DNA of 64,000 nt, taken from positions 1-64,000 of the forward strand of contig NZ_FMTS01000006.1 in the NCBI RefSeq assembly GCF_900100255.1, read 5' to 3'. The position numbers and the translations under genes are program-made. Positions 46,603 to 58,166 of this stretch are shown piece by piece (the stretch's first letter is position 1; every line of letters starts with the position of its first letter). This DNA comes from Asticcacaulis taihuensis. Its GTDB lineage: Bacteria > Pseudomonadota > Alphaproteobacteria > Caulobacterales > Caulobacteraceae. The notes under the pieces were generated by a model. That model was not told the DNA's origin. It searched no databases and was given only the letters and a program-made list of their open reading frames with translations.

Positions 46603-47499
46603 TTATTTCATAAGCTTACGACACAGTTCGTCGAGCTGTTCGAGGCTTGCATAGCTCAAACGCAGCTCGCCCTTGCCGCCACGGTCATCCAGACGGACAT
46701 TCAGGCCCAGCGCCTCCTGCAAATCCTGTTCGAGTGACAGGGTGTCGGCATTCTGCTGCGGCCGCGCCTTGGGCGACGGCGCCGCCTTCGGTCCGGCCTG
46801 CTCCTCGCGCACCAGGGCTTCGGTCTGGCGCACAGACAGCCCCTTGGCAATAACCTCTTCCGCTAGGGCGTCGGCATTTTCGGAGGTGATCAGCGCGCGG
46901 GCATGACCGGCCGACAGGCGGCCGTGCAACACATGATCCTGAACACCTTCAGGCAGCGCCAGCAGGCGGAGCGTATTGGCGATATGTGGGCGCGACTTGC
47001 CGACCACTTGCGCCAGTGCATCTTGGGTACGGCCGAAGCGATCCTGCAAGACCTTATAGCCGCGTGCTTCTTCGATCGGGTTCAGATCGGCGCGCTGGAC
47101 GTTTTCGATAATACCGATTTCCAGCACGTCGAGGTCATCCAGTTCACGGATGATCACCGGCACCGTATGCAGCCCGGCTTTTTGCGCCGCACGCCAGCGG
47201 CGTTCGCCGGCCACAATCTGGTAATGCCCGGCCTGACCGGGCGCCGGACGCACCAGGATCGGCTGGAGAATGCCCTTCTCACGGATCGAGGCCGCCAGTT
47301 CGTCAATATCGGATTCGACAAAGGTGCGGCGCGGCTGGTCCGGATTGCGCACCAGAAGTTCGATCGGCTGTTCTAAGCCCCTCATCGGCTCAGTGCCCCG
47401 CGCCTCCGCCGCTTCCGCACCCGTCTTCGGGCTATTGGTGTCCTGATCACCGAGCAGTGCGGACAAACCGCGGCCCAAACCTCTATTCTTTTCAGACAT
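46603..47499 (-). CDS. parB: Chromosome partitioning protein ParB
   Basis: A CTP-dependent clamp that loads at parS and spreads to organise the origin region. The 298-residue protein has an N-terminal ParA-binding tip (GLGRGLSALLGD), the C-box GERRWRAAQ, the catalytic ENVQRADLNPIEEARGYKVL region, the HTH (TQDALAQVVGKSRPHIANTLRLL) and a C-terminal dimer domain. It is downstream of parA by 27 bases, in the same operon as rsmG and mnmG; three exact parS sites lie within 6 kb upstream. Confidence 0.98.
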   Translation of the reverse strand: MSEKNRGLGRGLSALLGDQDTNSPKTGAEAAEARGTEPMRGLEQPIELLVRNPDQPRRTFVESDIDELAASIREKGILQPILVRPAPGQAGHYQIVAGERRWRAAQKAGLHTVPVIIRELDDLDVLEIGIIENVQRADLNPIEEARGYKVLQDRFGRTQDALAQVVGKSRPHIANTLRLLALPEGVQDHVLHGRLSAGHARALITSENADALAEEVIAKGLSVRQTEALVREEQAGPKAAPSPKARPQQNADTLSLEQDLQEALGLNVRLDDRGGKGELRLSYASLEQLDELCRKLMK

Positions 47500-47526
47500 T
47501 TATCTATTCTTCTTTTTGTCGGATAC

Positions 47527-48345
47527 TTAAGCCGGAATCTTTTCCGCCTGCTTGCGGCGCTTGCGTTCCCGCGCCACCAGTTCCTTGGCGAGCTTGATAT
47601 AGGCCTGGCTGCCGGAGCATTTCATATCGTAGATCAGGGCCGGCTTGCCGAAGGACGGCGCCTCGGACACCCGCACATTGCGTGGTATCACCGTATCATA
47701 GACCAGTTCACCAAAGTGCGACCGCACGTCGCGTTCAACATGTCCGGACAGGGCATTGCGCTTGTCGAACATGGTCAGGACAATACCTTGCAGGCTCAGC
47801 CTGGGGTTCAGACTACCGCGCACCAGGTCAATGGTGCGCATCAACTGGCTCAAACCCTCAAGCGCGAAAAACTCGCATTGCAGCGGCACCAGCACGGCAT
47901 CGGCGGCACTCATCGAATTGACCGTCAGCAGGTTCAGCGATGGCGGGCAATCAATCAGGATATAGTCATAGGGCGGCTTTTCCTGATCCAGGCCATCGAG
48001 GGCATCCCGCAAACGATAGGAGCGACGCTCGGCCTGGCCCAGTTCGATCTCCACGCCTGACAGATCCGGGTCAGATGGCAACAGCCAAAGCCCCGGCACC
48101 GCTGTACTAACAGCCGTATCACCAATCGGCCGACGATCGACAATCACATCATAAAGCGAATTTTCGCGCTGCTTTTTCGGCACGCCCAAGCCTGTTGACG
48201 CGTTGCCTTGAGGATCCAGATCGATCAGCAGCACTCGCTGGCCGATAGCCGCCAGGGCCGTACCCAGATTGATCGCCGTTGTGGTCTTGCCCACGCCGCC
48301 TTTTTGGTTGGCTATGGCCAGCACGCGAACTTTTTTATCGGACAC
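47527..48345 (-). CDS. parA: Chromosome partitioning ATPase ParA
   Basis: A deviant Walker A ATPase (KGGVGKT at residues 15-21 of this start) that moves ParB-parS complexes to the pole. The 272-residue protein contains VLLIDLDPQGNASTGLG, ILIDCPPSLNLLTVN, LVPLQCEFFALEGLSQL and RNVRVSEAPSFGKP. The GTG at 48345 has GGAG 8 bases upstream; an ATG at 48363 would add six residues. It overlaps the end of rsmG. Confidence 0.96.
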   Translation of the reverse strand: MSDKKVRVLAIANQKGGVGKTTTAINLGTALAAIGQRVLLIDLDPQGNASTGLGVPKKQRENSLYDVIVDRRPIGDTAVSTAVPGLWLLPSDPDLSGVEIELGQAERRSYRLRDALDGLDQEKPPYDYILIDCPPSLNLLTVNSMSAADAVLVPLQCEFFALEGLSQLMRTIDLVRGSLNPRLSLQGIVLTMFDKRNALSGHVERDVRSHFGELVYDTVIPRNVRVSEAPSFGKPALIYDMKCSGSQAYIKLAKELVARERKRRKQAEKIPA

Positions 48346-48970
48346 GACGCAATCTCCGGACATGGATGACGCGACCGCGTGGATCGCTAAGGGACTCGTA
48401 TTGTTCTACGTCAAAGCCCCATACTTTTCCAGCGTCCACCAATTCACTTTCCACGTTTTCCCCTTTTAAAAACCATGCATCAGCGCCTTTGTGGATAAAG
48501 CCTTCAGCAAAGCCCAGCAGCTTGTTCATCGGGGCGACGGCCCGCGCTGTGACAACATCCACTTTCAGCTTCACGTTCTCGGCGCGGTCATTGATCACCG
48601 TGGCGGGCAGGGACAAATCATCTACGACGGTCTGGAGGAAACGGCAGCGCTTGGTCAGGGATTCCACCAGATAAACGTGCGGAGGAAGCCCCTCGGAATG
48701 CTTGAGCAGGATGGCGAGGATAATGCCCGGAAAACCGGCCCCCGCGCCGAGATCAGCCCAGGTACGGGCGTCCGGGCGGCGGTCGAGCAGTTGCGCACTA
48801 TCAAGCACATGGCGCGACCAGTAGTCCGGCAAGGTCGCGGGGCCGACAAGGTTCATGACCTCGTTCTGCGCCGCCAGAATGTTGTTGAATGTTTGCAGCT
48901 CGGCAATGGCCTCGTGTTTCACGTGAAACACCAGCTTGGCGGACATCTCGTCCGGAGTCATATGGGTCAT
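48335..48970 (-). CDS. rsmG: 16S rRNA (guanine-527-N7)-methyltransferase RsmG (GidB)
   Basis: Methylates G527 of 16S rRNA; loss gives low-level streptomycin resistance in many bacteria. The 211-residue protein has [29 protein letters not shown], the SAM motif [30 protein letters not shown] and [13 protein letters not shown]. The sequence [10 protein letters not shown] at residues 12-21 is encoded by an exact parS site (48915-48930). Its ATG overlaps the mnmG stop (ATGA). Confidence 0.95.
48915..48930. promoter_or_regulatory. parS site 1, inside rsmG
   Basis: TGTTTCACGTGAAACA, an exact 16-bp palindrome matching the bacterial parS consensus that ParB binds. Confidence 0.95.
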
Positions 48971-50895: not shown

Positions 50896-52233
50896 CTATT
50901 TGCCTATGCAGAAGCTTGAAAAAATGACATCCAGCACACCCTCGACATCATAGCGGCCGAACAACTGCTCGAAGCTATTGGTGGCCGAACGGACATTTTC
51001 TGCGGCCAGTTCGGGGACAGCCAGGTTAGACCGCGATGCCATGGTCAGTTGATCACGGGCTTCCGTCAATCGCTCGATATGGCGCAGACGCGTCGCTGCT
51101 GGGAAGGTCTGGGCCGAAAGCTGTTCGCCCACAATCTGTTCAATCGTAGTGACCAGTTCTGTCACCCCTTCGCCCAGAGCCACACTGACGGCGAAGACCG
51201 ATGTTTCACGTGAAACACGCAAAGCGGCCACGGCCTCCCGTTCGGGCGTGTACGCTTCGTCAATCTTATTGAAGACCATGAGATCAGCGTCGCGGAAATC
51301 TTCCGGCAAAGCTGGAGCGGTCGAGTCGATCACCCAGATACGCAGGTCAGCTTCATCGGCCTTGGCCCTGGCCCGACGGATTCCCTCGGCTTCGACCACC
51401 TCTTCAGTCTCCCGCAGACCCGCCGTATCATAAAGCAGAACGGAATACGGTCCGATACGCAGTTGGGCTTCGATGATGTCACGCGTCGTGCCGGCTATGG
51501 GTGTGACGATCGCCGCCTCGGCCTTTAGCAGGGCATTGAACAGGCTGGACTTGCCAGCGTTCGGTTCACCCAGAATAACAATACGATACCCCTCGCGGAT
51601 TTGCCGGCCGCGACGGGAATCAGCGATGGCGGTCGTCAGCCTGGCTTCCAAAGTGCGGATTCGACCAAGAATGGAGTCTGTCAGCTCCACCGGCAGATCT
51701 TCGTCCGGGAAGTCGATATAGACTTCCAGCCGTGCCAGAATATCGATCAGGTCGGAGCGCCAGGTTTCATATTGCTGCCTGAGCCCCCCACCCAACTGGG
51801 TCAGCGCCTGGAGCCTTTGCGCATCGGATTCCGCGTCGACCAGATCAGCAATGGCCTCGGCCTGGGTGAGGTCCAGCTTGCCATGCGCCAGCGCGCGGCG
51901 GGAAAATTCACCCGGCGCCGCCAGTTGCAGGCCCAGTTCGGTCAGGATGAGATACAGACGATCGAGAATCGCTTTCGAGCCATGGACATGCAACTCGACG
52001 CAATCTTCACCGGTGAAACTATGTGGCGCCTTGAACCAGAGGACAACGGCCTCATCGATCACCTCACCCTGCCAGGTGAGCGGCGTATAGGTCGCCATAC
52101 GCGGCGTCAGAGTCTTGACCGTAAATTGTTGAACGGCCCATAGCGCCTTGTCACCGGAGAGGCGGATGATCGACACCCCTGCCCGGCCCTGCGCGGATGC
52201 CAGAGCGAAAATCGTGTGTTTCACGTGAAACAC
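50896..52233 (-). CDS. mnmE: tRNA modification GTPase MnmE
   Basis: Works with MnmG on wobble-uridine modification and binds formyl-THF through its N-terminal domain. The 445-residue protein has TIFALASAQGRAGVSIIRLSG, the GTPase motifs GEPNAGKSSL near residue 222, GTTRDIIEA, DTAGLRE and NKID, and the terminal FCIGK (catalytic Cys). The first codons ATG TTT CAC GTG AAA CAC contain a parS site (52217-52232), and a second parS lies at 51202-51217. Confidence 0.97.
   Translation of the reverse strand: MFHVKHTIFALASAQGRAGVSIIRLSGDKALWAVQQFTVKTLTPRMATYTPLTWQGEVIDEAVVLWFKAPHSFTGEDCVELHVHGSKAILDRLYLILTELGLQLAAPGEFSRRALAHGKLDLTQAEAIADLVDAESDAQRLQALTQLGGGLRQQYETWRSDLIDILARLEVYIDFPDEDLPVELTDSILGRIRTLEARLTTAIADSRRGRQIREGYRIVILGEPNAGKSSLFNALLKAEAAIVTPIAGTTRDIIEAQLRIGPYSVLLYDTAGLRETEEVVEAEGIRRARAKADEADLRIWVIDSTAPALPEDFRDADLMVFNKIDEAYTPEREAVAALRVSRETSVFAVSVALGEGVTELVTTIEQIVGEQLSAQTFPAATRLRHIERLTEARDQLTMASRSNLAVPELAAENVRSATNSFEQLFGRYDVEGVLDVIFSSFCIGK
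51202..51217. promoter_or_regulatory. parS site 2, inside mnmE
   Basis: TGTTTCACGTGAAACA, exact parS consensus, read by mnmE in a different frame (RVSRETS) from that used in rsmG. Confidence 0.95.
52217..52232. promoter_or_regulatory. parS site 3, over the mnmE start codon
   Basis: TGTTTCACGTGAAACA, exact parS consensus. It covers bases 2 to 17 of the mnmE coding sequence. Confidence 0.95.
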
Positions 52234-52587: not shown

Positions 52588-53979
52588 TCAAGTATTCATG
52601 CTTTGGAAGAATTCGGCGTTGTTCTTCGTCTGGCGCAGTTTGTCACTGAGGAACTCGATCGCATCCTGTGCGCCCATCGGATTGAGGATACGGCGCAGGA
52701 CATAGGTCTTTTGCAGGTTGACCTTGTCGGTGAGCAGTTCTTCCTTACGCGTGCCGGACTTGAGAATATCCATGGCCGGGAAGACACGCTTATCGGCCAC
52801 CTTGCGGTCGAGCACGATTTCCGAGTTACCTGTACCCTTGAACTCTTCAAAGATGACTTCGTCCATGCGCGAGCCGGTATCGATCAGGGCCGTGGCGATG
52901 ATGGTCAGCGAGCCGCCCTCTTCGATATTACGAGCGGCGCCGAAGAAGCGCTTAGGACGCTGCAGGGCGTTGGCGTCAACACCACCGGTCAGTACCTTGC
53001 CCGATGACGGCACGACCGTGTTGTAGGCGCGACCCAGACGCGTGATCGAGTCAAGCAGGATAACAACATCGCGCTTATGCTCGACCAGACGCTTAGCCTT
53101 TTCGATAACCATTTCGGCGACCTGAACGTGACGCGTGGCCGGCTCGTCGAAGGTCGAGGAAATGACTTCACCGCGGACAGTGCGCTGCATGTCGGTCACT
53201 TCTTCCGGACGTTCATCGATCAGCAGGACGATCAGGTAGCAATCCGGGTGATTGGCGGCGACGGACTTGGCGATATTTTGCAGCATGACAGTCTTACCGA
53301 CGCGCGGCGGGGCGACGATCAGGCAGCGCTGACCCTTGCCGAGCGGCGCCACGATATCGATGATGCGGCCTGAACGATCCTTGAGCGTCGGGTCTTCGAT
53401 CTCCATCCACAGACGCTGGTCGGGATAGAGCGGCGTCAGGTTGTCGAAATGGACCTTGTGCCGGATATTTTCCGGGTCTTCAAAATTGATCGTCTGGATC
53501 TTGAGTAGGGCGAAATAGCGCTCGCCTTCACGCGGCGAACGGATCGGCCCTTCGACGGTGTCACCGGTGCGCAGACCATGACGGCGGATTTGCTGCGGCG
53601 AGACATAGATGTCGTCCGGGCCTGGCAGATAGTTGGCTTCGGGCGAGCGCAGGAAGCCGAAACCATCCTGAAGCACTTCCATAACGCCGGAACCTGTAAT
53701 TTCGACGCCTTCTTCAGCCAGCGCCTTGAGTACGGCGAAGAGCATATCCTGCTTGCGCATGTTGGAGGCATTTTCGACCCCCAGGGATTCGGCGAAGGTC
53801 AGCAGGTCGGTCGATGATTTATCTTTCAGGGTCTGAAGTGACATCTTCTGACCGGCCATGGAGCCTTCGACTTCTTCTTCCTCGCCCTCGTCTGTTTCGA
53901 GGTCGGCGTCGAGTGTGTCGTCGGTCAGGTTGTCTTCGGCCTGAATTTCGTTTTCGGGGATTTCGGTATCGTCGGTCAT
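52588..53979 (-). CDS. rho: Transcription termination factor Rho
   Basis: The hexameric RNA helicase that ends transcription at Rho-dependent sites. The 463-residue protein has an acidic N-terminal segment, the RNA-binding cold-shock-like domain ([28 protein letters not shown]), Walker [26 protein letters not shown], the Q-loop region and the R-loop [15 protein letters not shown] 53979 follows GAAGAGAATACC; a frame from 54066 would add 29 basic, unfitting residues. Followed by a long inverted-repeat gap up to hemJ. Confidence 0.97.
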
Positions 53980-54207
53980 GGTATTCTCTTCGTCAGGAAC
54001 GGAATACGCGCAAGTTAAAAGCCAAGGCTTTTGCCTTGAACTATTGCGATGGTATCCCCAGCCCATTTTAGCTTAAACGCTTGAAAAGGCTTATAAATGT
54101 CAAATGAAGTGGCAGTTCCACAGAACGTGGCGCCATCAGGACGGCTGTTAAGTGCAGCTTAAGTCGGTTGCGATAACTACACCAACACGGCCCATCGTCA
54201 AGTTAAT

Positions 54208-54789: not shown

Positions 54790-55811
54790 GCAGCACCTCT
54801 TTTCGGACAGAAACTGTGACACTTGCCGCAATTATGATCGCCTACCACACGGTCACCAGAACCAATGGCCTTCAGCACCTCATCATTCAGTGCCTTGATA
54901 TATGAGGCATTTACCCCCAGGGCCGGCAGGCGGATATAGTCCTTCACGCCCGATGCCGCCGCCAGATGGGCATATTCAATATCCAGTTCCACCAGGGTCT
55001 CGATATGCTCGGAGACAAAGGCAATCGGCACCAGGATGATCGATTTGCCATCGGCGCCCGCCTTCTGGATGCTGGCATCCGTCGAGGGCCCGATCCATTT
55101 CATCGGCCCGACCCGGCTCTGATAACAGATGCTGTGTTCGATCGGATTACCGAGCCCGGTCATGATTTTCGCCACGCAGGATTCAACCTGCGCCTGATAG
55201 GGATCGCCCCGCGCGATGATACTTTCCGGCAGGCCATGCGCGGAAAACAGCAGGCGATAATGTCCTGGCTGTTTCAATGTGCCGATCTTTTCCTGGATAG
55301 CATCGACATGCGCCTTGATGAAATGGGCATTGTCCGAATAGCAGCAGACCGAGGTCACCCTGGCCTTGCCGGCATAAACCTTCTGGAAAGCTTGAAAAGA
55401 GGACAGGGTCGTAGTCGAGGAAAACTGCGGATAGAGCGGCAGCAGCACAATCTCATCCGGTCCCCAGGCGTCGATTTCCCGCACTGTGTCTTCGATGAAG
55501 GGATGCCAGTAGCGCATACCGATAAACACCTTGGCTTCAATACCCTTGGTATTGGCGGCGATATAGGCTTCCAGCGCCTGAGCTTGCGCCTCCGTTTCCT
55601 TCAGGATCGGTGAACCGCCACCCATATGAGCGTAATTCTTTTTGGCTGAGGGTGCGCGCCGGCTGGAAATCAGGGAGGCCACGCCCTGCCTGACACCGAA
55701 AGGCAGGTTGATGATATTCTTGTCGGCGAAGAGATTATAAAGAAAACCCTGCACGTCTTCGGGGTTTTTCGGTCCACCCAGATTGAACAACAATACCGCT
55801 ATGCGCTTCAT
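54786..55811 (-). CDS. hemH: Ferrochelatase
   Basis: Inserts Fe(II) into protoporphyrin IX, the last step of heme synthesis. The 341-residue protein has VLLFNLGGPKNPEDVQGFLYNLF, MRYWHPFIEDTV, VLLPLYPQFSSTT, LLFSAHGLPESII, YQSRVGPMKWIGPSTD and FVSEHIETLVELD. The C-terminal CGKCHSFC suggests a [2Fe-2S] cluster as reported for Caulobacter ferrochelatase. Overlaps hemE (ATGA) and hemJ (GTGA). Confidence 0.97.
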   Translation of the reverse strand: MKRIAVLLFNLGGPKNPEDVQGFLYNLFADKNIINLPFGVRQGVASLISSRRAPSAKKNYAHMGGGSPILKETEAQAQALEAYIAANTKGIEAKVFIGMRYWHPFIEDTVREIDAWGPDEIVLLPLYPQFSSTTTLSSFQAFQKVYAGKARVTSVCCYSDNAHFIKAHVDAIQEKIGTLKQPGHYRLLFSAHGLPESIIARGDPYQAQVESCVAKIMTGLGNPIEHSICYQSRVGPMKWIGPSTDASIQKAGADGKSIILVPIAFVSEHIETLVELDIEYAHLAAASGVKDYIRLPALGVNASYIKALNDEVLKAIGSGDRVVGDHNCGKCHSFCPKRGAA

Positions 55812-56848
55812 TCGCCTCTGATCCGCTTGAGCGCCTGCTCGACATGAGCCATGGGCGTATCCGGGAAGATGCCGTGGCCCAGATTGAAGATCAAGGGCCC
55901 CTGCCCCCAGCTTTCGAGAATAAGATCGATCGCCCGGTCCAGTGCCTTGCCGCCGGAACGTAATACCACTGGATCGAGCGCGCCCTGGATCGGCACCTTT
56001 TTCTGTAATTCGACGCCCAGCTTCATCGGCGTGGCCGTGCCGAGCCCCATGCCCTGCACCGGCACCTGATCGGCATAATCATGACAGCGGGCTTCGGCGC
56101 CGCGCGGGAAACCGATGATCGGCAGGGTGACACCCAGTTCCCTCACCCGCCGGATCAGGCGAATTTGCGGCTGGATGATCAGGCTGTCGAAATAGGGATC
56201 AGGGAACCCTTCCGCCCAGCTTTCAAATATTTTCAGCACCTGCGCACCATTATCGGCCTGCATCTTCAGATACTGCGCCGACGCCTCGATCACGATATCC
56301 GTCAGATCGAGCACTTTCTGATAATCGTCATAAACGAAGGCCCTGATGAGACTGCGATCGTGAGCCTTCTTGCCGTTCAGCATATAGGTCATCACCGTCC
56401 ACGGCCCGCCGCAGAAACCGATCAGTGTTGTCTCCGCTGTTAGCTCCGCTTTCACACGCGCGACCGTCTCACCGACATTTTTCAGTGCTTCTCCCGCCAA
56501 GCCGGCTTTTTTCCGCATGGCGTCCAGCGCCGGCAGTTCGCCCAGCACCGGCCCTTCACCCACCGCGAAAGTCAGATCCTGACCCAGAGCCAGGGGAATC
56601 ATCAGAATATCTGAAAAGAGAATGGCGGCGTCGAAACCATAGCGTCTGATCGGCTGCAAGGTGGCTTCGGCCGCCTTCTCCGGTGTCAAGCAGAAATCCA
56701 CGAACCCCTTGGTCGTCGCTCGCAACTCCCGGTATTCCGGCAGATAGCGCCCTGCCTGACGCATGAACCATACCGGAGGCACCTTAAGCGTTTGGCCGTT
56801 GAGAACCGCCAAAACCGATGAATGTATGGGTGCCTGAGCGAGAGCCAT
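55808..56848 (-). CDS. hemE: Uroporphyrinogen decarboxylase
   Basis: Decarboxylates uroporphyrinogen III to coproporphyrinogen III. The 346-residue protein has PPVWFMRQAGRYLPEYRELR, the DAAILFSDILMIPLALGQDL segment, FCGGPWTVMTYML, FESWAEGFPDPYF, FPRGAEARCHDYADQ and NLGHGIFPDTP. It heads the heme operon and is transcribed away from the origin, as hemE is at Caulobacter Cori. Confidence 0.97.
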   Translation of the reverse strand: MALAQAPIHSSVLAVLNGQTLKVPPVWFMRQAGRYLPEYRELRATTKGFVDFCLTPEKAAEATLQPIRRYGFDAAILFSDILMIPLALGQDLTFAVGEGPVLGELPALDAMRKKAGLAGEALKNVGETVARVKAELTAETTLIGFCGGPWTVMTYMLNGKKAHDRSLIRAFVYDDYQKVLDLTDIVIEASAQYLKMQADNGAQVLKIFESWAEGFPDPYFDSLIIQPQIRLIRRVRELGVTLPIIGFPRGAEARCHDYADQVPVQGMGLGTATPMKLGVELQKKVPIQGALDPVVLRSGGKALDRAIDLILESWGQGPLIFNLGHGIFPDTPMAHVEQALKRIRGE

Positions 56849-56997
56849 GAGTCAACCTGTGTGAAACCGACCTTCCCTTAGCCCTAATCTAAATAAAAAG
56901 AAAAGAGTTTGTAGAAGGTTATAGGGCCGGGGACAGTGCGCAAAAGTGTCGCAGATTTCGCCGGATTCACGGGTTTTTCACATGCCATCCGGAATGG

Positions 56998-57013
56998 TTA
57001 ATCCTTCATTAAC
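56998..57013. promoter_or_regulatory. CtrA box in oriC, copy 1
   Basis: TTAATCCTTCATTAAC fits the CtrA consensus TTAA-N7-TTAAC exactly. Confidence 0.8.
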
Positions 57014-57018
57014 AGCCC

Positions 57019-57027
57019 TGTGAATGA
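57019..57027 (-). promoter_or_regulatory. DnaA-box-like site
   Basis: Minus strand TCATTCACA differs from the TTATNCACA consensus at one base. Confidence 0.45.
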
Positions 57028-57057
57028 CTTGGATAATTAACCAAATATTAGTATTGC

Positions 57058-57072
57058 TTAAAAAATTCTTAA
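57058..57072. promoter_or_regulatory. CtrA box-like site in oriC, copy 2
   Basis: TTAAAAAATTCTTAA has the TTAA-N7-TTAA spacing but lacks the final C; a weaker TTAA-N7-TTAG site lies at 57037-57051. Confidence 0.6.
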
Positions 57073-57099
57073 TACGATGAAGCGAGTTTGTGTGAATGG

Positions 57100-57115
57100 T
57101 TAATGAAGAATTAAC
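57100..57115. promoter_or_regulatory. CtrA box in oriC, copy 3
   Basis: TTAATGAAGAATTAAC fits TTAA-N7-TTAAC exactly and closely repeats the box at 56998 together with three upstream bases. Confidence 0.8.
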
Positions 57116-57124
57116 TTACGCACA
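57116..57124 (+). promoter_or_regulatory. DnaA-box-like site next to CtrA box 3
   Basis: TTACGCACA differs from TTATNCACA at one base and directly abuts the CtrA box, so CtrA and DnaA could compete here (inference). Confidence 0.5.
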
Positions 57125-57271
57125 GAGAGCCATAAGAATTTCATACAGAACGGGCGGGAGTCGATAAGCATCGGGTAAATACACGGGTTTTGCACGCTTT
57201 CCCCCGCCCTTGCGGCCCTTTGCGAATTATCGGATGATTGTCCACGACTGACTCCGACTTATACAGTCGCC

Positions 57272-57280
57272 TTATCCCCA
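57272..57280 (+). promoter_or_regulatory. DnaA-box-like site near ppsR
   Basis: TTATCCCCA differs from TTATCCACA at one base. Confidence 0.5.
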
Positions 57281-57314
57281 GTTCGGCACACAGATTTAAT
57301 TTTACAGGCTTTCC

Positions 57315-58166
57315 ATGTCCTCCCCCTCAGCCAAGATCGGCAGCTATTTCCACGTTCACCTGGTGTCGGATTCCACCGGCGAAACCCTCAATGCTCTGGC
57401 CAAGGCGGCGGCGGCGCGTTTTGAAGGCATCCTGCCGATCGAGCATATCTATGTGCTGATCCGCTCGGAAAAGCAGTTGGAGCGTGCCCTTGTGGAAATC
57501 GAGAGTTTTCCGGGGATCGTGCTGCATACCATGGTCGATATGGAATTGCGGACTGCCCTGGAGGCGCGGTGCCGCGAACTGGATATGCCGGCGATCGGCG
57601 TGCTTGATCCGCTGGTGGTGGCCTTCTCGCGGCATCTCGGCGCGGCGGTTTCCAAGCGGGTCGGCGCCCAGCATAATCTCGACAATGAATATTTCGAGCG
57701 CATAGAGGCGCTGAACTATGCCATTGCCCATGATGATGGCGCGGCGGCCGACCGGGTGAAAAATGCCGATGTAGTGCTGGTGGGGGTAAGCCGCACATCT
57801 AAGACGCCGACCTGCATCTATCTGGCGCACCGCGGCATCAAGGCGGCCAATATTCCGCTGGTGCCCGGCCGGGGTCTGCCGGAGGAACTGGACGATATGA
57901 ATATCCCGCTGGTGGTGGGCCTGATCGCTTCGCCGGAACGGTTGATCTCGATCCGCAAGAACCGCCTGCTGACCCTGAATGACGACCGGCCCTCTTCTTA
58001 TACCGATACCGAAGCCGTGCGGCAGGAGATTATCGCCGCGCGCCGGCTGTTCGAACGCAAAGGTTGGCCGGTGATCGATGTGACGCGGCGCTCGATCGAA
58101 GAAACCTCGGCGACGATTATCAGTTTGCTGAATGAGAAGCGAACGGGGAGGCTTGGAGGGATTTGA
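57315..58166 (+). CDS. ppsR: Pyruvate, water dikinase/phosphate dikinase regulatory protein (DUF299)
   Basis: A bifunctional kinase and pyrophosphorylase that switches PEP synthase or pyruvate phosphate dikinase off and on. The 283-residue protein has YFHVHLVSDSTGETL, the P-loop-like VGVSRTSKTPTCIYLA, GIKAANIPLVPG and IEETSATII. It is the gene bordering the origin in Caulobacter. ATG 57315 preceded by only weak ribosome-site sequence; upstream in-frame codons to 57238 in another frame are not supported. Confidence 0.95.
   Translation: MSSPSAKIGSYFHVHLVSDSTGETLNALAKAAAARFEGILPIEHIYVLIRSEKQLERALVEIESFPGIVLHTMVDMELRTALEARCRELDMPAIGVLDPLVVAFSRHLGAAVSKRVGAQHNLDNEYFERIEALNYAIAHDDGAAADRVKNADVVLVGVSRTSKTPTCIYLAHRGIKAANIPLVPGRGLPEELDDMNIPLVVGLIASPERLISIRKNRLLTLNDDRPSSYTDTEAVRQEIIAARRLFERKGWPVIDVTRRSIEETSATIISLLNEKRTGRLGGI

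Follow-up and report, generated by a model that had tools for sequence, protein, structure and literature searches.

The intergenic gap between hemE and ppsR in Asticcacaulis bears on an evolutionary question, namely how chromosome replication in the Caulobacterales was brought under the gating of a transcription factor. The mechanistic data in the papers cited here come mostly from Caulobacter crescentus, whose origin (Cori) adjoins hemE (PMC8959179) and is described as containing five CtrA sites, a pair of G-boxes that overlap these sites or lie close to them, and weak W-boxes (PMC4468827, PMC4285127, PMC8959179); the CtrA sites and the exclusion of DnaA at Cori are treated together in two of these sources (PMC4468827, PMC4285127). 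Cori further includes an IHF site that overlaps a CtrA box. No study of an Asticcacaulis origin was found in the open-access literature; its place may already be predicted by software, as Ori-Finder has been applied to alphaproteobacterial chromosomes including those of Caulobacterales (PMC9756655). The window considered here is a 64-kb stretch of DNA (64,000 nucleotides), and its hemE/ppsR gap is predicted to be an oriC gated by CtrA, in a variant of Cori common to the whole genus, with a probability of roughly 0.86. The whole genus displays the same locus and the same regulator with a different site geometry and one fixed pair of CtrA box and DnaA site; it is a natural variant for asking whether CtrA control requires DnaA to be sterically excluded from a single site or the melting region to be covered.

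The hemE/ppsR gap and its neighbours

The gap is a 466-bp region (56849..57314) with exact boundaries: the start codon of hemE (55808..56848, minus strand, Pfam URO-D) ends at 56848 and ppsR (plus strand, 57315..58166, Pfam Kinase-PPPase) runs from 57315, the two genes being divergent. One flank holds parB-parA, gidB, gidA/mnmG, mnmE, rho, and hemH, and the other maf, aroE, coaE, and a dnaQ-like gene; ten proteins were scanned with Pfam, and parB, gidB, and aroE were assigned by reading of their translations. The parB and parA genes occupy 46603..48363 on the minus strand, with parA matching AAA_31/CbiA and parB assigned from its translation only. We take the gene order around the gap to resemble the wider order in Caulobacter. 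The genome encodes a CtrA orthologue with 90% identity to a C. crescentus CtrA query, and also DnaA; a second match to the DnaA C-terminal domain falls in a 153-aa open frame (G000:C7:53982-54173).

The organism is placed in Asticcacaulis, as are 16 of the 18 PpsR loci returned by a scan of named genomes. A single ppsR match per genome is present in all 25 Asticcacaulis genomes, the window's own included, and the hemE/ppsR pair also flanks the orthologous gap in g22, a genus called Caulobacter-like because 7 of 10 of its gaps carry the G-box. Comparisons were made between 25 distinct Asticcacaulis gaps and 44 gaps from other genera of the family. The genus set derives from 42 loci with the gap, of which 17 were removed (16 duplicates and the outgroup L017), L018 having been removed earlier for want of a hemE match; the other-genus set derives from 48 loci, of which four were removed as the flank had no hemE match, L065 having been removed before for the same reason. 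The first-pass annotation described the gap as compact, which is not distinctive, as the 44 other-genus gaps span ~460-610 bp (approximate lengths, counted from the first aligned hemE residue).

CtrA boxes in the gap

Perfect TTAA-N7-TTAA boxes start at 56998, 57058, and 57100, with a one-mismatch box at 57037; the three boxes and fourth near-match of the first-pass annotation are therefore real features of the sequence, and chance accounts for them poorly, as dinucleotide shuffles of the gap average 0.036 boxes and none of 5000 reaches three. When the 180-bp AT-rich core alone is shuffled, one of 5000 reaches three boxes. The box word is not enriched genome-wide, since the 3.97-Mb genome contains 49 perfect boxes and the backwards-read control pattern also gives 49; the gap is the sole site of the genome with three boxes inside 120 bp, by inspection of the box list by eye. 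Over the 25 genus gaps there are 57 perfect boxes against 0.78 expected, with one to three in every gap. Tandem CtrA-box pairs number 24 in the 25 genus genomes, and 21 of these, from 16 genomes, lie within this gap (reversed control, 1); a tandem perfect-box pair is absent anywhere in six of the genomes and occurs only off the gap in three more.

The four boxes, a to d, all lie inside 117 bp. Box a (TTAATCCTTCATTAA, 56998..57012) is perfect here; at the aligned position 5 of the 25 genus gaps have a perfect box, and 15 have one in this area when small shifts are tolerated. The near-match box b (TTAACCAAATATTAG, 57037..57051) has one mismatch in 23 gaps and two in the other 2, and is perfect in none; it is perhaps a half-site, as its left TTAA alone is kept (23/25). 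Box c (TTAAAAAATTCTTAA, 57058..57072) is perfect in 16 gaps, with one mismatch in 8 and two in 1, and resembles the central box TTAACAAATTCTTAA of the g22 gap L088. Box d (TTAATGAAGAATTAA, 57100..57114) is perfect in all 25 distinct gaps. A genus-specific core, GGATAATTAACC (57031..57042, plus strand), in which a minus-strand TTATCC (a DnaA-box half) abuts TTAA, is exact in 21/25 genus gaps and present in all 25 with slight degeneracy, and is found in none of the 44 other-genus gaps.

The site geometry is unlike that of Cori, as the Asticcacaulis boxes are clustered centrally: a distance of 129-281 bases separates the hemE end from the start of each perfect box, and 189 bases or more lie between the end of the box and the ppsR end. 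All 25 gaps lack a perfect box close to either gene; in L016 a box with one mismatch lies close to hemE. Where g22 gaps do have perfect boxes, these are found close to hemE, centrally, or next to ppsR; no perfect box was found in 3 of 10 g22 gaps, nor in 13 of the 44 other-genus gaps overall.

It is improbable that this is an origin without CtrA gating, with boxes that are mere inherited relics and initiation timed by DnaA levels only. Across the genus boxes a, b, and c do vary, 13 of 44 other-genus gaps manage without any perfect box, and in Caulobacter a reduced affinity of the five Cori sites for CtrA is reported to have only a mild cell-cycle effect in the laboratory, the sites mattering under stress (PMC4468827); against this, box d is perfect in every distinct genus gap while the spacers vary, and perfect boxes far exceed the 0.78 expected. 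CtrA gating is thus the preferred reading, and given that the loss of affinity at Cori is mild in Caulobacter, gating may be subtle in Asticcacaulis too.

DnaA-like sites, G- and W-boxes, and GANTC

The several DnaA-box-like sites noted at first pass amount to eight matches to TTATCCACA with at most two mismatches, against 1.47 +/- 1.18 expected, a number reached by 1 of 1000 shuffles; the same pattern over the 25 genus gaps gives 168 against 37.1 expected. All eight are weak: none is perfect and one, TTATCCCCA (57272..57280, plus strand), which holds the W-box word TCCCCA, has a single mismatch, and a single-mismatch site or better is also found in 114 of 1000 shuffles. Of the others, TTTTTCACA (56974..56982, plus strand) recurs as an exact word in 19 of the 25 gaps and as TTT[T/G]CACA in 24; TCATTCACA and TTATCCAAG (57019..57036, minus strand) have two mismatches each, and TTATCGACT (57159..57167, minus strand) and TTGTCCACG (57238..57246, plus strand) are likewise weak. 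The arrangement is like that of an E. coli-type oriC in that DnaA-like sites adjoin an AT-rich region, and unlike it in having no strong DnaA box, the perfect TTATCCACA word being absent from all 25 genus gaps; CtrA control presumably stands in Asticcacaulis in place of the regulators of E. coli.

The G-box TGATCCACA is absent from this gap at up to one mismatch and its exact word from all 25 genus gaps, in which Asticcacaulis differs from Cori; it is present in 7/10 g22 gaps and also in G109. The W-box word TCCCCA occurs once in this gap, which 222 of 1000 shuffles match, and zero to three times in each genus gap, with at least one in 23/25.

The gap has four GANTC sites, against 1.51 in gap shuffles and 0.74 at the density of the window. 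The GANTC sites listed in the first-pass annotation are thus present in modest excess, and this evidence carries little weight as the genus gaps do not share their positions; GANTC clustering as an origin mark was rejected on that ground. In the window as a whole GANTC is strongly depleted (102 against 285 expected), which is expected of a CcrM-methylated genome.

The AT-rich core

By nearest-neighbour energies, the least stable 100-bp stretch of the entire 64-kb window is 57018..57117, which agrees with the A+T-rich core proposed earlier; the stretch contains boxes b, c, and d and is probably the unwinding element. In Asticcacaulis the least stable 60 bp lies at a mean position of 0.40 of the gap and overlaps a perfect box in 22/25 gaps, versus a mean of 0.18 in g22, with overlap in 6/11 gaps (G109 included); the sequences suggest that CtrA in Asticcacaulis sits on the melting region. 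The claim of a central melting region peculiar to Asticcacaulis loses force, as the melting minimum is also central in single gaps of g11, g13, and g14 and in several of g7, and the least stable stretch of the Asticcacaulis gaps L004 and L006 is near hemE. A second minimum of nearly the same weakness lies close to hemE in several Asticcacaulis gaps.

The box d/CACA pair

The DnaA-like site TTACGCACA (57116..57124, plus strand) is coupled to box d as TTAA-N6-CACA, with the CACA invariant in 25/25 gaps. The full pattern TTAA-N7-TTAA-N6-CACA is present at the gap in all 25 genus genomes, which contain four other sites, with one for the reversed control (positions matched by eye). Within box d and its CACA 12/12 motif columns are invariant versus 0/13 of the columns between, among 15 distinct 25-mers; gap-wide, 67/466 columns are invariant. 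As the rows are kin rather than 25 independent events, the stronger argument is how sharply motif columns differ from spacer columns. At the gap of other genera the N6 pair is found in 3/103 genomes (G085, G045, and G068), on the strand opposite ppsR, with one further site elsewhere; a spacing of six unique to Asticcacaulis was dropped for this reason.

The spacing of CtrA box to CACA is six in Asticcacaulis versus nine in the Caulobacter-type module, TTAA-N7-TTAA-N9-CACAG. The latter was found in 27/119 family genomes (reversed control, 3) and lies beside ppsR in 26 of them (positions matched by eye), all 26 being among the 103 other-genus genomes; none of 16 Asticcacaulis genomes has the module. 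Matches to a looser N9-like pattern in 3/25 genus gaps fall inside box a and were read as chance rather than as a module. In a midpoint-rooted PpsR tree of 74 rows, in which identical PpsR rows were merged to leave 23 from Asticcacaulis, N9 carriers are confined to a single 35-row subclade outside the Asticcacaulis clade, with support of only 92/49 for the other-genus branch and one long-branch row outside both. Loss of the N9 module in Asticcacaulis was dropped as an account, for the tree does not separate loss from never having had it. Judging by the PpsR tree, the Asticcacaulis coupling may have arisen separately from the ppsR-side module of box and G-box in the Caulobacter lineage.

Part of the sequence conservation between box d and ppsR could reflect a CcnA-like non-coding RNA in addition to an origin role, which is considered unlikely. 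The 182-nt CcnA of C. crescentus is reported to start 23 bp from an origin CtrA box and to end at another, with closer homologues described in Caulobacterales (PMC8959179), and box d could take the promoter role; however, RNAalifold finds no consensus fold in the 25 aligned downstream regions on either strand (energy 0, as also in shuffles), there is no Rfam match in the gap or window (Rfam may not hold CcnA), and there is no perfect box at the far end. An unstructured transcript from the ppsR side of box d is possible.

GC skew, parS, and origin assignment

GC skew of the 64-kb window alone has no clear minimum, and contig samples were used for this reason; the values for G021, G017, and most of G018 derive from such samples. 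In the single-contig genome G018 a contiguous 400-kb stretch reaches its cumulative GC-skew minimum no more than 2 kb from the gap (in the 2-kb bin that closes at 2,510,001, with ppsR at 2,510,035-2,510,877), and the samples flanking the gap pass from -0.049 to +0.039. Twenty 20-kb samples of G021 display a sign change at the gap from -0.039 to +0.037; in G017, the nearest relative, the sign change is weak (-0.041 to +0.003), and if its two contigs belong to a single circle, the terminus marked by the sign change on the second contig lies ~51% around it. Along the 269-kb contig that bears the window, skew shifts at the gap (57 kb), from between -0.037 and -0.059 on the left to near zero or mixed on the right, and the cumulative minimum is at 175 kb, 118 kb off; this contig alone would therefore not place the origin. 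The GC-skew check named at first pass thus succeeds in the single-contig relatives and fails in part on the contig of the window, where the minimum is considered to be shifted off the gap by right-arm skew that is locally negative or weak. Such skew close to the origin is seen at ~117-177 kb of G000 contig 16 and in a similar stretch of G017 near C1:1.5 Mb.

Three perfect copies of the parS-like word GTTTCACGTGAAAC (48916..48929, 51203..51216, and 52218..52231, all on the plus strand) lie 4.6-7.9 kb from the gap, and with up to two mismatches there are five sites against 1.39 expected; the C. crescentus parS is placed within 8 kb of the origin (PMC4468827). The skew sign change in G018, G021, and (weakly) G017, the nearby parS, the genus-wide conservation, and the CtrA orthologue argue that the gap is very probably the chromosome origin of Asticcacaulis species, as was first proposed from its CtrA and DnaA-like sites. 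It is hardly credible that the boxes are instead ordinary CtrA-controlled promoter elements of divergent hemE and ppsR with the origin elsewhere: a divergent promoter gap needs regulators, CtrA is reported to act at ~100 promoter regions in C. crescentus (PMC7200025), and the contig of the window has its cumulative skew minimum 118 kb off, but the sign changes in the three relatives, the 21/24 tandem box pairs in the gap, the clustering of AT-rich core, DnaA-like sites, and parS words around it, and the hemE-adjacent origin of C. crescentus (PMC8959179) all point to an origin here.

An origin belonging to a second replicon, as the two-contig G017 might imply, is disfavoured, as RepC (PF03428) matched 2/10 genomes tried, neither of them G017 nor G000, and the skew signs fit one circle; G017 as two circles is possible. 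Large second replicons are possible in Asticcacaulis, since the second-largest replicon of A. excentricus CB 48 is reported to be the richer in c-di-GMP genes (PMC9756655). The RepC-like initiators found among the 10 genus genomes searched are on contig 4 of each carrier (G006:C4:77006-77476 and G016:C4:5591-6106).

Proposed mechanism and comparison with known origins

Within the favoured reading of a CtrA-gated oriC, the binding of CtrA and DnaA, repression, the place of unwinding, and cell-cycle timing are predicted by analogy with Caulobacter. In swarmer (G1) cells phosphorylated CtrA would fill boxes a-d, on and beside the AT-rich unwinding region, and would keep DnaA off the adjoining weak sites, chiefly the site six bases from box d; bound CtrA may also hold the duplex closed. 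Once CtrA is removed, DnaA would assemble cooperatively on weak sites (TTACGCACA, TTTTTCACA, and those of TTATCC/TCCCCA type) and open the stretch near 57018-57117 for bidirectional replication, with the nearby parS and ParAB segregating the copies. An Asticcacaulis-specific form of CtrA-DnaA coupling, in which the central box lies six bases from a DnaA-like site, the other boxes cover the melting region, and CtrA itself blocks unwinding, is advanced tentatively, the odds being somewhat against it, in part because some other genera also melt centrally.

The Caulobacter Cori plan invoked in the first-pass annotation holds in part. The gap is like Cori in being adjacent to hemE, with CtrA boxes, weak DnaA sites, an AT-rich part, and nearby parS, and the hemE/ppsR pair is shared with g22; the plan does not extend to the G-box, to perfect boxes near hemE or ppsR, or to the CACA spacing. 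Hyphomonas neptunium, where ChIP-seq is reported to place CtrA binding beside the origin (PMC7200025), and some marine Caulobacter, whose use of CtrA at the origin is considered in a review to be probably of independent origin (PMC4468827), also have origin-located CtrA sites, which is the likeness to Asticcacaulis noted here.

CtrA boxes away from the probable origin

The off-origin tandem CtrA-box pairs of three genus genomes are at G007:C1:2221925, G015:C17:3749, and G019:C57:3105. In the window, the longest rho frame (minus strand, 52588-54066) is preceded at ~80 bp by a perfect CtrA box (54148-54162), whose position makes it a possible CtrA-controlled rho promoter.
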